A DNA stretch of 64,000 nt from Opitutales bacterium (lineage in GTDB: Bacteria; Verrucomicrobiota; Verrucomicrobiia; Opitutales; Opitutaceae). The notes under the pieces are model-generated. The model saw only the letters and a program-made list of their open reading frames with translations, made no database searches and was not told the origin of the DNA. The stretch is taken from positions 1 through 64,000 of the forward strand of contig JABITN010000196.1 in the NCBI GenBank assembly GCA_018700525.1. Direction: 5' to 3'. The translations under genes were made by a program, and so were the position numbers. This document shows, in pieces, positions 4,031 to 17,306 of the stretch (position 1 is the stretch's first letter; the number at the start of each line of letters is the position of its first letter).

Positions 4031-5038
4031 TCACTTCTTCTTCCATTCCTTTTTCGCGGCCGGCGGTTTCAAAGGCAGCCGATCTAACATTCCGGCGTCC
4101 GACACCACCTCGTAAGCCGTTCGAAAATGCAACTTGGCAAAATCCTTAAATACATCCGGACCAAATTTCTCGAGGATCTCCGTCGCCTGCTCCTTCACCA
4201 TCGCGCTAGCTCCCTTCTTAAGGGTGTCGCCAAATCGTTTCGACAAAGAGTCCATGTAACGCACGTAGGCCGCTCGAGCGACTACTGAAGCCGCAGCCAC
4301 AACCGGATCCGCTTCCGCCTTGGTCTCCATCCGCAGATCGAAATCGGAATCCTTGAAATACCGACCGACCAAATCCTGTTTGCTAAATTGGTCCAACATT
4401 CCCCAAGGAGCACGTTTGCGCTTCAGTGCCGCCTTCAAACTATTCGCATGCTGCCAGGCCAGCAGCAAGTTCAAGTTCGCCCGCGGCTTACCCATAAGCT
4501 CGTTATACTTGCTCATCCCGCAAAAGCAGGTTTCGACCGCAACACCCCTCGTCGCGCGAATGATCTGATCCAATTTAAGGATACGACCATCGGTTATCTT
4601 CTTGGAATCCCGGATTCCTTCCTTCACCCATACATCGATCTGCGGCTTATCCGCGATCACGCAAGCCGTTACGATCGGACCAAAGAGATCACCCTTACCG
4701 CTTTCATCCATCCCCGCATGCAGCTCGAACCATTCGGGGTGATAAATTTCATCGTAGCCGAACCGCGCCTCGCCAAGCACCTCAGGCTCCAGGATATTGA
4801 TGACGAAATCCTCCATTTCCCTTCCCTGGACGACTAGCTTGCCGCTATTATAGACAACAACGTTCACCTTATTGCCCTTGTAGGCGAATCGAGCGTATTC
4901 CACCTCGTAAGGCTCCCAACTCTTCGTTTCGCAGATGTTTCCCAATTTCCCCATCTGCTCATCCGAGAGTTTATTCGTATACAGAGTTTTCTTCTTCGGC
5001 TCTTCGGGAAACTCGATTTGCTTTTTACGTTTAGCCAT
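4031..5038 (-). CDS. rnhC: ribonuclease HIII
   Basis: 335 residues. The first ~100 residues form the TBP-like substrate-binding domain (DUF3378) that separates HIII from HII. The catalytic domain starts at HAGMDESGKGDLFGPIV, with GKGD in place of the GRG of HII. A lysine-rich N-terminus (MAKRKKQIEFPEEPKKK) and C-terminus (PPAAKKEWKKK) flank the enzyme. It removes RNA/DNA hybrids in replication and repair. It is directly upstream of rnhB and divergent from mutY with 92 bases between. Confidence 0.95.
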   Translation of the reverse strand: MAKRKKQIEFPEEPKKKTLYTNKLSDEQMGKLGNICETKSWEPYEVEYARFAYKGNKVNVVVYNSGKLVVQGREMEDFVINILEPEVLGEARFGYDEIYHPEWFELHAGMDESGKGDLFGPIVTACVIADKPQIDVWVKEGIRDSKKITDGRILKLDQIIRATRGVAVETCFCGMSKYNELMGKPRANLNLLLAWQHANSLKAALKRKRAPWGMLDQFSKQDLVGRYFKDSDFDLRMETKAEADPVVAAASVVARAAYVRYMDSLSKRFGDTLKKGASAMVKEQATEILEKFGPDVFKDFAKLHFRTAYEVVSDAGMLDRLPLKPPAAKKEWKKK

Positions 5039-13439: not shown

Positions 13440-14057
13440 TTAAGTATCACTATTTTGTAAAATACTGGGCAACCACCCCAGAAACTGCCGCATCGCATTA
13501 CCACGGTGACTAATGGCCGCTTTTTCCTCCGAACTCATTTCGGCAGTCGTCCGGTCTTCTCCCACTGGTAAAAAAACCGGGTCATATCCAAATCCAGCCT
13601 CACCTCGTCGCTTTCTCAAAATCGTCCCTAGAATCTCGCCTACGAAAATTCGTTCGTCACCGTGAGGAGCCACTACCGCCAAGTGACACTCAAAGCTCCC
13701 GCCTCGCTGGTCATCCGGCAATAGCTCCATTTCCCGAATCAACTTGTCTAGATTCTCCTCGTCCGTCGCGTCTTCTCCCGCATAGCGAGCCGAATATACT
13801 CCAGGAGCACCATCGAACGCTTCGATACAAATTCCGCTATCATCAGCAAGAGCTAGGCCATCCTCTGGCAAAAGAGCCGCCAAGGCGCGAGCCTTCTTCA
13901 AAGCGTTTCCCGAAAACGTATCCTGATCTTCGACAACCTCAGGCATTCCACCCACAGCCTGAGCAGTATGGACTTCGACATCAAGACCAGTCGCCGCCAG
14001 CATTGCCGCCAACTCCTCGATTTTATGAAGATTACTCGTTGCTAAATACAGTCTCAT
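13440..14057 (-). CDS. rdgB: RdgB/HAM1 non-canonical purine NTP pyrophosphatase
   Basis: 205 residues. It hydrolyses dITP, ITP and XTP to the monophosphates and so keeps deaminated purines out of nucleic acids. Marks in order: LATSNLHKIEEL (triphosphate-binding start), TFSGNALKKARAL, GLALADDSGICIEAFDGAPG (catalytic Asp pair), SARYAG, GFGYDPVFLPVG and the C-terminal SHRGNAM with the base-contacting His-Arg. Its start overlaps the ribD end by 26 bases, indicating translational coupling. Confidence 0.96.
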   Translation of the reverse strand: MRLYLATSNLHKIEELAAMLAATGLDVEVHTAQAVGGMPEVVEDQDTFSGNALKKARALAALLPEDGLALADDSGICIEAFDGAPGVYSARYAGEDATDEENLDKLIREMELLPDDQRGGSFECHLAVVAPHGDERIFVGEILGTILRKRRGEAGFGYDPVFLPVGEDRTTAEMSSEEKAAISHRGNAMRQFLGWLPSILQNSDT

Positions 14058-15198
14058 CTACGTCCAAACGCGATGGATACGATACAAACCCCCGCATCAA
14101 CTGATCATCCCCGTATACCTCATTGCGAACCCGCTCCAATCGAATCGCTTGAGACAATTTTTCGATTCGCATACCTCGATATACCGGTTTCGCCTTATCG
14201 TCTCCCAATAAAACTGGAGCCCGATAATTAAAATGATAATCCAGCTCCCGCATATGCAAAAGCTCGCTCGTCAATTTGCTGCCTCCCTCAAAATAGATCC
14301 CATTGATACCCACATCGTAACACTTTTTCTTAAATTCCGAAAACGGCACCTTCATATTCTCCGCGGGCAAAACCCACACATTTACGCCTTCCGTCTCCAA
14401 TCGACGGATATATCCCGTGCCAGCCGCATCCGTAGTGACCACAATCGTATTATCGCGATGATCATCCGTGTAAACCGAAGGCAAATAACGCTCCATCGCC
14501 GTTCGTAGCAAACCGTCCATCACGAACCGAACGCCGCACCACTCTTCCTCGCCATCGATCCGGCTCGTCAAACGAGGGCCATCCTTGATCACCGTCCCCG
14601 CTCCAACTCCAATCGCAGGAAACAAACGACGCCATAACATGACGTTTTGCCGAGCTTCTTCACCCGTAATCCATTTCGACTCTCCTGTGCGGCAAGCGAT
14701 TTTCCCATCCAAAGTCGTCGCAGATTTCGCCGCAAGCATCGGTGCACGCTTTTTCACCCAGTGATTAAAAATCAGGTTTAAATCCTCGCAGTCATCGATA
14801 AGGATCCGACGCTCCACCTGAATTCCCAATTCCTTCAACGCATCAGTGCCTTTATTCTCGTGCTCCGCAACAGGATCGCAGGCCCCGATAAACACGTTCC
14901 GCACCCCCGAATCCACTATCGCTCTAACCCCCGAATCCAAGCGATTCGAAGACGAACCCGGCTCAAGCGTAAGAAAAAGACTGGCATCGCCGACCGGTTT
15001 TCGGCCCAACGATTCGAAAAGACGCGACTCAGGTCCCCGCGAGCCTGATTGGGAGACATGCTCACGAGCAACAATCTCGCCATTTTCGACCAAAACCGCG
15101 CCGATCATAGGCTGCGGATGCGTTCGACCCCATCCTTTGCGCGCCTCGCCTAAAGCCGCTTTCATGAATATTTCTTTTTCAGATCGTGTCATGGCCAT
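14032..15198 (-). CDS. ribD: RibD-type protein: intact pyrimidine reductase, degenerate deaminase
   Basis: 388 residues from the ATG at 15198 (MAMTRSEKE); a second ATG follows two codons later. RibD normally has a zinc deaminase and an NADPH reductase domain for two steps of riboflavin synthesis. The reductase half (about 155-388) looks intact: KSATTLDGKIACRTGESKWITG, GAGTVIKDGPRLTSR, GIYFEGGSKLTSELL. In the deaminase half the zinc His of the HAE motif is absent (GSRGPESRLFESL) and the P-C-x8-C motif reads LEPGSSSNRLDSG, so all three zinc ligands are gone. The aligned catalytic Glu may remain. This matches plant PyrR, a reductase with a dead deaminase. The deaminase step must come from elsewhere. 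Overlaps rdgB. Confidence 0.9.
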   Translation of the reverse strand: MAMTRSEKEIFMKAALGEARKGWGRTHPQPMIGAVLVENGEIVAREHVSQSGSRGPESRLFESLGRKPVGDASLFLTLEPGSSSNRLDSGVRAIVDSGVRNVFIGACDPVAEHENKGTDALKELGIQVERRILIDDCEDLNLIFNHWVKKRAPMLAAKSATTLDGKIACRTGESKWITGEEARQNVMLWRRLFPAIGVGAGTVIKDGPRLTSRIDGEEEWCGVRFVMDGLLRTAMERYLPSVYTDDHRDNTIVVTTDAAGTGYIRRLETEGVNVWVLPAENMKVPFSEFKKKCYDVGINGIYFEGGSKLTSELLHMRELDYHFNYRAPVLLGDDKAKPVYRGMRIEKLSQAIRLERVRNEVYGDDQLMRGFVSYPSRLDVDETVFSNE

Positions 15199-15313
15199 TC
15201 GTAACACGCTCGATTAGAACAGCTTTACTCGATCATACAATCCTCATCTTCAGCACCTTTTGAACTATTGGGTTTCACCTTCTGCCCGATAGCACAAGCA
15301 GTTCGACGGAAAT

Positions 15314-15961
15314 TCACGCCTTGCGCCCTGGGACAAACGGATTCGTCTCGATCTCTTGCCCAACGGTCGTCTGTGGACCATGACCCGGGAAAACATTCGT
15401 TTTTGGATCTAAAGTATAGATCTGCTCGCGAATCGACTTTTCCAAAGTCGGGAAGTCTCCACCTTTCAAATCGGTTCTCCCAATACTACCCGCAAACAAC
15501 GCATCTCCAACAAAAGCGGCCTCATGCACAGCGAAGTAAAAAAGGATATTCCCCGGACAATGCCCAGGCACATGCCGAATCTCTATCGTCTCGCCCAACA
15601 ACTCTATCGTATCATCCTGCTCCAACCAATGATCGATCATAACCGGTTCCAAAGTCATATCCGGAGGATACACATACGGTCGCATCACTTCCGGCGTTTC
15701 GTAGAACAATTGATCGTCGCGATGCCCGTATGTCGAACAGCCTAATTTCTGAATACGGCTCGCTCCACCCATATGATCATAATGCCCATGCGTTAACAAC
15801 AACGCCTTCAGCTCGCAACCCAGCTCCTTCAAGACAGGCTCCACCTCATCCCAAACAAAATGCGGAGCATCGATCAATATCGATTCCTTACGCTCCAAAT
15901 TCGACAGTAGAAAAGCATTGGTCTGAATATAACCTGCAGGAAAAACACGTAAATCGATCAT
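15314..15961 (-). CDS. MBL-fold metallo-hydrolase (glyoxalase II-like)
   Basis: 215 residues from the ATG at 15961, supported by GGTGGGGA directly before it; the frame is open 55 codons further but that part has no family match. The metal site is clear: LLTHGHYDHMGG (His-x-His-x-Asp-His, about residues 65-76), VPGHCPGNILFY (third His), AAFVGDALFAGSIGRTDL (bridging Asp) and FPGHGPQTTVGQE (last His). These are the YcbL/GloB-like hydrolases that cleave thioesters such as S-lactoylglutathione; the true substrate is unknown. Divergent from leuB. Confidence 0.92.
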   Translation of the reverse strand: MIDLRVFPAGYIQTNAFLLSNLERKESILIDAPHFVWDEVEPVLKELGCELKALLLTHGHYDHMGGASRIQKLGCSTYGHRDDQLFYETPEVMRPYVYPPDMTLEPVMIDHWLEQDDTIELLGETIEIRHVPGHCPGNILFYFAVHEAAFVGDALFAGSIGRTDLKGGDFPTLEKSIREQIYTLDPKTNVFPGHGPQTTVGQEIETNPFVPGRKA

Positions 15962-16205
15962 TCCCCACCCATGAACTCGCAGATATTCTGAATCAAATAA
16001 AAAACCTAAATTGGTGAATTCAGCGATGGAAGCCCGTTCATTAAGTATCCCGAACATCTTAATCATCAGCGAATCCATTGCCCCTCCTAGAAAGCCGATA
16101 GGCTGACCCATTCCACCAAAAATCATCCCGATTTGCCGAATTCGGCTCTTCCAAATGCAGTTTGCGCTTTAAATAGTAGCAGTTTCCCCCTCAATAGCCC
16201 ACCTC

Positions 16206-17306
16206 ATGAAAACGCTTAAATTCGCAGTTCTCCCCGGTGACTACATCGGCCCGGAAGTAATGACCGTCGCGCTCGACGTCCTCAAGGCCGCTACCGAGCC
16301 CGCGGGCATAGTGCTCGACTACACCGAAGCCGACGTCGGAGGCATCGCCATCGACAACCACGGAGTCGCGCTACCCGACAGCACCATCAAAATCTGCGAA
16401 GACGCTGACGCTATCCTCTTCGGTTCTATCGGTGGCCCCAAGTGGGAAAACCTTCCTCCAAAAGAACAGCCCGAACGCGCAGCCCTCCTGCCAATTCGTA
16501 AGCACTTCAACCTCTTCGCCAATCTCCGCCCCGGCCTTCTCTTTAAAGAGCTAACCGACGCATCGCCGCTCAAAACCGAGCGTATCCCCAACGGTATCGA
16601 CATCGTATGTGTTCGCGAACTCACCGGTGGCATCTACTTTGGCCAACCCAAATCCACGACCATACTCGAAGACGGCGACATCGAAGCCATCGACACCATG
16701 GTCTACAAGAAAAGCGAGATCGAGCGCATCCTCGAAGTCGCCATCGCCTCCGCCAAAGCACGCTCCGGCAAAATTTGCTCCGTCGATAAGGCCAACGTCC
16801 TCGAGACCTCCGTCCTCTGGCGTAAAACCGCAACCGAATACGTCGCAAAGCATGCTCCCGAGCTCGAACTCAGCCATATGTACGTTGACAATGCCGCTAT
16901 GCAAATGGCCCGCGACCCCAACCAATTCGACGTTATCGTAACCGAAAATATGTTCGGTGACATCATCTCCGACGAAATGGGAATCGTCTGCGGGAGCCTC
17001 GGCATGCTCTCTTCCGCTAGCCTCGGGACCGGCAAAAACCAATACGGAAATCCATTTGGACTTTACGAACCTTCTGGTGGGACTGCACCTGACATTGCAG
17101 GAAAAGGCATTGCCAACCCCTGCGCCCAGATTCTCAGTGCCGCGCTCATGCTCCGCTATAGCTTCGGCCTAAACGACATCGCTCAAAAGATCGAAGCCGC
17201 CGTTAAGGAGGCCGTCATGGATGGCAACCGTACCGGCGACATAGCCTTCGGCCAAAAATCCATCGAAACCAAAGCAATGGCCCAAGCCATCACCGAAAGA
17301 CTCTAA
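16206..17306 (+). CDS. leuB: 3-isopropylmalate dehydrogenase
   Basis: 366 residues, typical of bacterial LeuB, which oxidises and decarboxylates 3-isopropylmalate in leucine synthesis using NAD. Motifs: LFGSIGGPKWENLPP, substrate-binding LRPGLLFKEL, RELTGGIYFGQ, CSVDKANVLETSVLW with the catalytic Lys, VTENMFGDIISDEMG with metal-binding Asp, and the NAD-binding EPSGGTAPDIAGKGIANP. An oddity is PGDYIGPEV at the N-terminus where the family usually has PGDGIGPEV. No leuC or leuD is nearby. The broken GxxExxY unit follows. Confidence 0.95.
   Translation: MKTLKFAVLPGDYIGPEVMTVALDVLKAATEPAGIVLDYTEADVGGIAIDNHGVALPDSTIKICEDADAILFGSIGGPKWENLPPKEQPERAALLPIRKHFNLFANLRPGLLFKELTDASPLKTERIPNGIDIVCVRELTGGIYFGQPKSTTILEDGDIEAIDTMVYKKSEIERILEVAIASAKARSGKICSVDKANVLETSVLWRKTATEYVAKHAPELELSHMYVDNAAMQMARDPNQFDVIVTENMFGDIISDEMGIVCGSLGMLSSASLGTGKNQYGNPFGLYEPSGGTAPDIAGKGIANPCAQILSAALMLRYSFGLNDIAQKIEAAVKEAVMDGNRTGDIAFGQKSIETKAMAQAITERL

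Follow-up and report, generated by a model that had tools for sequence, protein, structure and literature searches.

To our knowledge, only plants have been known to share out the work of RibD between a separate deaminase and a reductase whose own deaminase domain is dead. The plant deaminase PyrD is described as homologous to RibD over its full length, its reductase domain being dead, and the plant reductase PyrR as a full-length homologue that has lost the deaminase residues and kept those of the reductase (PMC9678776). In the archaeal and fungal route, reduction is described as taking place before deamination (PMC8256712). For another enzyme of the pathway, RibBX of Shewanella and Aeromonas is reported to be a RibBA protein whose GTP cyclohydrolase II (GCH II) domain is dead, with the zinc and ring-opening residues lost; it is accompanied by a separate RibA in Aeromonas, and in Shewanella the dead domain regulates its partner (PMC10012899). 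The titles and abstract openings of the open-licence papers in our literature list report neither a split nor a zinc-less RibD in bacteria.

We analyzed a stretch of 64,000 nucleotides (the window) from an Opitutales bacterium of the family Opitutaceae, which contains a ribD gene with three conserved neighbors (Table 1). The open frame of ribD spans positions 14032-15207 of the minus strand with a GTG start; the downstream ATG at 15192 is preferred, and it fits the alignment of the relatives. By its score against the NCBIfam RibD model TIGR00326 (204 bits, cut-off 156) the product is a full-length RibD. It has the predicted fold of both domains and the conserved positions of the reductase, and it lacks the zinc His and both zinc Cys residues of a bifunctional enzyme. 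A protein may thus score above the NCBI cut-off for bifunctional RibD without being bifunctional. In six stretches around ribD, the stand-alone deaminase gene described below, and ribBA, no FMN riboswitch or other Rfam element was found at the gathering threshold.

Table 1. Features of the ribD locus in the window, with the diagnostic codons of the deaminase site (codons numbered from the ATG at 15192)
Feature	Position	Strand	Details
Zinc-less RibD homologue (PyrR-like)	14035..15192	-	386 aa, ATG at 15192, stop 14032-14034; TIGR00326 204 bits, A3 profile 812 bits
Degenerate deaminase domain, N-terminal, residues 1-148	14749..15192	-	PF00383 18.6 bits (cut-off 25); 13/37 near-invariant positions lost; fold kept in model
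Reductase domain RibD_C, C-terminal, residues 149-386	14035..14748	-	PF01872 92.4 bits; 29/29 near-invariant positions kept
Codon 27, substrate Asn of PNP -> Gln	15112..15114	-	Asn fraction 1.00 in intact RibDs; Gln in 16/16 zinc-less
Codon 53, zinc His -> Gly	15034..15036	-	In 16 zinc-less: Ala 6, Gly 4, Ser 4, Cys 2
Codon 55, catalytic Glu retained	15028..15030	-	Glu in 16/16 zinc-less
Codon 79, first zinc Cys -> Gly	14956..14958	-	Gly in 16/16 zinc-less
Codons 82-85, former zinc loop, new motif	14938..14949	-	pLDDT <50; Asn83 and Arg84 invariant in 16/16
Codon 88, second zinc Cys -> Gly	14929..14931	-	Of 16 zinc-less: Gly 15, Ala 1
rdgB/HAM1 family pyrophosphatase gene, conserved neighbor	13440..14057	-	Overlaps ribD end; PF01725 211 bits, TIGR00042 173 bits; synteny
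Metallo-beta-lactamase superfamily protein, conserved upstream neighbor	15314..16126	-	PF00753 83.6 bits; synteny
leuB (3-isopropylmalate dehydrogenase), conserved neighbor	16206..17306	+	TIGR00169 470 bits; synteny

The deaminase site was read against B. subtilis RibG and an alignment of 99 RibDs with the motifs kept and 16 zinc-less proteins, including that of the window, with residue roles taken from the description of A. baumannii RibD (PMC3668577). This alignment bears out an earlier note on the window, which had claimed a zinc-less deaminase domain: the zinc His corresponds to Gly53 and the two Cys residues to Gly79 and Gly88. None of the 16 zinc-less proteins has any of the three ligands in place. 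A sequencing error is ruled out, because both HAE and PC-x8-C are absent from all 19 full-length zinc-less copies, the window protein included. The note had named zinc His and Cys residues elsewhere in the domain as contrary evidence. The domain does contain further His and Cys residues. The only invariant ones are His25 and Cys135, and since both also occur in the three intact RibDs of the family in this alignment, they do not form a new ligand set. The losses extend beyond the zinc site: of the 37 positions near-invariant in intact domains, 13 have been lost in 90% or more of the 16 zinc-less rows.

Two residues of the former site persist, Asp106 being kept, like Glu55, in all 16 zinc-less proteins. 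This retention is unexpected for simple decay and counts against the reading preferred here, in which the domain is dead. An enzyme that still deaminates through Glu55 and Asp106, with another metal or with none, could account for it, and the invariance of Glu55, Asp106, and Arg84 in the 16 proteins, together with the Cys found at the zinc-His position in two of them, is consistent with such activity. We nevertheless regard continued deamination by this domain as very improbable, given that no ligand is in place, that the substrate site has other residues instead of Asn27, Gly83, and Thr85, and that the genome encodes another member of the family with its zinc deaminase site complete.

The reductase motifs listed in the earlier note (TLDGKI, TGESKWITG, and EGGSKL) are all found as stated. 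In the alignment, all 29 near-invariant positions of this domain are kept in each of the 16 zinc-less proteins, that of the window among them. Six fixed differences distinguish the window reductase domain from family RibDs, and none falls at these 29 positions. Mutants of the RibD zinc site are reported to retain reductase activity (Magalhaes 2008, as cited in PMC3668577), which counts for the preferred reading of the window protein as a reductase with a dead deaminase domain.

The separate deaminase that the earlier note had inferred is encoded in the same genome (G000), on contig C265. The search proposed there, for a second RibD or a stand-alone zinc deaminase, yielded one stand-alone gene at about 4261-4710 of the minus strand, coding for 149 aa from the likely Met, with HAE and PCSTHGRTGAC. 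The protein is of RibD type, scoring 145.5 bits against the RibD model (positions 1-134 of 343) vs 48.9 bits against the TadA model. Across the whole genome, PF00383 detects two genes above the cut-off, this deaminase and TadA on contig C241 (158.7 bits to the TadA model). TIGR00326 matches are limited to three places, the window protein, the C265 deaminase, and TadA; the search of this genome thus gave no intact fused RibD. The other route through the pathway step that the note had offered as an alternative is not needed for deamination, as a separate deaminase is present.

The co-occurrence of the two genes extends to the relatives. In the TIGR00326 search of zinc-less genomes, which took in 17 of them and left out G472, G507, and G508, a stand-alone RibD-type deaminase is present in 16. 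The exception is an assembly of 320 contigs with 88% completeness (G002), in which it was not found. Conversely, in two genomes with the stand-alone deaminase, G003 and G006 (93% and 89% complete, 460 and 800 contigs, respectively), the zinc-less RibD was not found. The single-contig genomes G007 and G010 each contain exactly one zinc-less RibD, one stand-alone deaminase, and one weak TadA-like match. When every candidate per genome was scored in 21 family genomes with an intact fused RibD, none had a stand-alone RibD-type deaminase beside it, the other matches reaching at most 51 bits. The zinc ligands are all kept in each of the 21 stand-alone deaminase rows. The gene is accompanied by sufE and yidD in all 18 loci read from the clade and by a nitroreductase gene in 11 of 18. 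These neighbors were named by Pfam on the genes of G000, where the deaminase gene lies between sufE/nitroreductase and yidD. In G063, which still has an intact fused RibD, the stand-alone deaminase comes after a YidD domain (89 bits) within a single open frame (L092:1453-2211, minus strand), and the two may be fused.

The dead domain is apparently still folded. The AlphaFold model of the window protein (pLDDT 92.5, pTM 0.90) matches B. subtilis RibG (2b3z) with Z 40.6 and rmsd 3.2 over 358 aligned residues, and pLDDT falls below 50 only in the former zinc loop (residues 82-85) and at the C-terminal end. The median ratio of dN in the deaminase domain to dN in the reductase domain is 1.99 in the zinc-less proteins vs 0.84 in intact family RibDs; relative to the reductase, the dead domain thus evolves faster than the intact one does. 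The median dN/dS is 0.13 for the deaminase domain (9 of 120 pairs usable) and 0.06 for the reductase domain (6 of 120), which is weak evidence of constraint, as synonymous sites are saturated in most pairs. Several replacements have become fixed: Gln27, Ile30, Gly79, Ser81, and Asn83 occur in all 16 zinc-less proteins, and Gly88 in 15. Fixation and constraint make free decay less likely and suggest that the dead domain may have a structural or binding role.

The former pocket bears a new motif (Gln27, LEPG, Ser81, Asn83), with Glu55, Arg84, and Asp106 kept. A tentative possibility, which we consider rather doubtful, is a pseudo-deaminase with a new job, i.e., a partner or allosteric platform that would dock the stand-alone deaminase or bind a ligand of the pathway. 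Dead partners exist in other deaminase pairs and are comparable in principle with such a function. Against a role of the dead domain in communication between domains, no crosstalk between the domains is reported for E. coli RibD (PMC3668577).

The zinc-less type is confined to four genera (g1, g9, g13, and g20) among 252 genomes of the family, over which its profile gives 19 full-length matches of 778-823 bits and one truncated match (G001); the next match, with 537 bits, is a RibD with the intact motif from G023. Of the 80 named loci from GTDB genomes, two are zinc-less (L102 and L117) and 76 have HAE or HGE with the Cys pair, L125 being a fragment and L145 having been read in the wrong frame. 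Matches were seen in 44 plasmid records, all with less than 60% identity. In the reductase tree, which contains no plants, the 16 zinc-less rows form one clade within the family (100/99), and its sister is G023, with weak support (96/43). The gene order leuB-MBL-ribD-rdgB (MBL being the metallo-beta-lactamase superfamily gene) is common to zinc-less and intact ribD and represents the ancestral locus. As these neighbors are shared with intact ribD, the fused gene was most probably inherited in place.

The deaminase tree groups 20 of the 21 stand-alone copies together (SH-aLRT 95), nested among the RibDs of Opitutales (SH-aLRT 93 on a short alignment), in a tree of few columns with 62 of 117 inner forks open. 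This gives modest support to the view that the stand-alone gene derives from RibDs of the order itself. The copies from G063 and G168 are sister to those of the clade, and both genomes have an intact fused RibD. Their position beside intact RibDs fits an order of events in which the copy came first and the decay later. Transfer of the stand-alone gene between families could also have taken place.

We therefore favor, with a probability of roughly 0.85, the following scenario. A free copy of the deaminase domain of the order's own RibD would first have arisen or been acquired. In the ancestor of the four genera, the active site of the fused domain would then have decayed where it stood, at the ancestral ribD locus. 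The reductase would have retained the dead domain in folded form, where it probably serves stability, assembly, or contact with the deaminase. At present, the window protein would act as a PyrR-like reductase, and the stand-alone zinc deaminase on C265 would carry out the deamination in the manner of PyrD.

A differently degenerated RibD with LEPV and no zinc ligands is found in G047, a genome of another family, together with its own stand-alone deaminase (L046 and L054), which occupies another place in the deaminase tree, on a long branch. This is likely a second split. An AU test did not reject one clade of G047 with the window's group (p 0.208); judged from the different replacements, the G047 split is likely to be independent. 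The cases from genus g16 were not counted with the window's clade, as they form their own group (99/86) and have losses in the reductase too. The RibDs of G299 (L077), G320 (L078), and G025 (L038) are altered at active-site positions of both domains: all three lost deaminase residues, accompanied in the reductase by losses of Trp174 and Glu302 (and Asp204) in G299 and G320, and of Ser172, Trp174, and Asp204 in G025. In G320, a rib cluster contains a reductase-only RibD_C protein, and a RibD-type stand-alone deaminase was not found. Besides its dead native RibD, G025 has another, divergent one with the motifs intact (L053:2444-4177, plus strand), whose contig also carries RibH and an intact GCH II nearby; it was possibly acquired from outside.

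The rest of the pathway bears on another explanation, in which the organism takes up riboflavin, the pathway is decaying, and the zinc-less RibD is turning into a pseudogene. No intact GCH II was found in the window's genome. Its RibBA (L202:1888-2982, plus strand, on contig C81) retains the DHBP synthase half (242 bits, cut-off 177), and the GCH II half, from which the zinc Cys triad and RQEGRGIGL are absent, reaches 59 bits against the RibA model (cut-off 206), with no other PF00925 match at E values up to 1. The search for the first step took in GCH II and GCH III; GCH III was found in none of 15 genomes searched, including this one. The absence of GCH II weakens the claim of a complete pathway. 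It is not specific to the zinc-less clade, because relatives with an ordinary RibD share the loss: a RibBA whose GCH II half lacks the Cys triad and RQEGRGIGL occurs in 25 of the 27 genomes of the order that were read, with or without an intact RibD, the exceptions being G025 and G320, which keep the site. In the window's genome and in many others of the order, the first riboflavin step has no enzyme assigned to it. A creatininase-type formamidase, BrbF (described in PMC9478397), was considered as part of an alternative first step and gave no uniform answer, since no more than 9 of 15 genomes have PF02633. A separate intact GCH II is present in three genomes of the same genus as the window's (G002, G003, and G008). 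In G008, a single frame of 465 aa (L049:2290-3684, plus strand) combines an intact GCH II domain (246 bits, cut-off 206) with a RibD_C-type reductase domain behind it, and in G002 the GCH II frame adjoins a reductase frame (L048).

An example of such decay is provided by G299, which looks riboflavin-auxotrophic: both RibD sites are altered, and neither GCH II nor RibH gave a match. For the window's clade, decay of the pathway seems unlikely, since all 29 near-invariant reductase positions are kept, the dN/dS values given above are low (for the few usable pairs), RibH and RibE are present in the zinc-less genomes searched (8 of 8 and 7 of 7, respectively), and the stand-alone deaminase has every zinc ligand in all its rows.

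The division of labor could also involve a reversal of the two steps: the reductase would act first, as is the case in fungi and archaea, and the stand-alone deaminase would take the ribityl compound. In all 18 stand-alone deaminases of the clade, Thr replaces the Asn that aligns with Asn103 of B. subtilis RibG, described as a ribose contact (PMC8256712, section 3.3). At position 46, where most RibDs have His, 17 of the 18 copies have Phe or Tyr, and the copies of G063 and G168, which stand beside an intact RibD, keep both His and Asn. The reductase fused to an intact GCH II in G008 gives 131 bits with the archaeal-type reductase model, below the cut-off of 186, but scores higher as a bacterial RibD C-terminal domain (160 bits). 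Both deaminase positions also vary in intact RibDs (5 of 99 lack the Asn and 8 of 99 the His), both residues are kept in the stand-alone copy of G047, which accompanies a dead RibD, and the fixed differences of the window reductase lie outside its near-invariant positions. Hence we hold a reversed order of the steps to be quite unlikely, and return to the scenario of a zinc-less reductase with a separate deaminase for the comparison with known systems.

The window protein shares with the bifunctional RibD/RibG proteins (2b3z of B. subtilis, 2g6v of E. coli) the two-domain fold and the reductase residues, and with the intact RibDs of the family the locus. It differs from them in the absence of the zinc ligands and the substrate Asn, with a complete deaminase domain encoded by another gene. 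The archaeal and fungal proteins Rib2 and Rib7 likewise divide the two steps between separate proteins, but in the structure comparison the solved archaeal and fungal reductases match the window protein only from residues about 138-150 onward. RibBX presents the same pattern in the same pathway, a dead fused domain that stays while a separate enzyme supplies the activity, for another enzyme and another step; its X domain is comparable in principle to the proposed role of a pseudo-deaminase partner. The split described here may serve as a natural test of why riboflavin enzymes keep dead domains.

The parallel with plants suggested by the earlier note holds in part. Compared with the published description of PyrR (PMC9678776), the window protein is likewise a full-length homologue with the deaminase residues lost and the reductase residues kept, and a separate deaminase is encoded in the same genome, as in nearly all zinc-less genomes searched. 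The parallel does not extend to the deaminase: PyrD is full-length, whereas the stand-alone protein, of about 150 residues, ends after the deaminase domain. In a tree without plants, the window protein groups with the RibDs of Opitutaceae; the plant proteins were compared by description. Thus, a plant-like division of RibD is indicated in bacteria too, and a possible intermediate, an intact fused RibD with a stand-alone copy, is visible in related families. As far as sequence can show, the pair would be a bacterial counterpart of plant PyrR and PyrD in which the deaminase is a bare domain.
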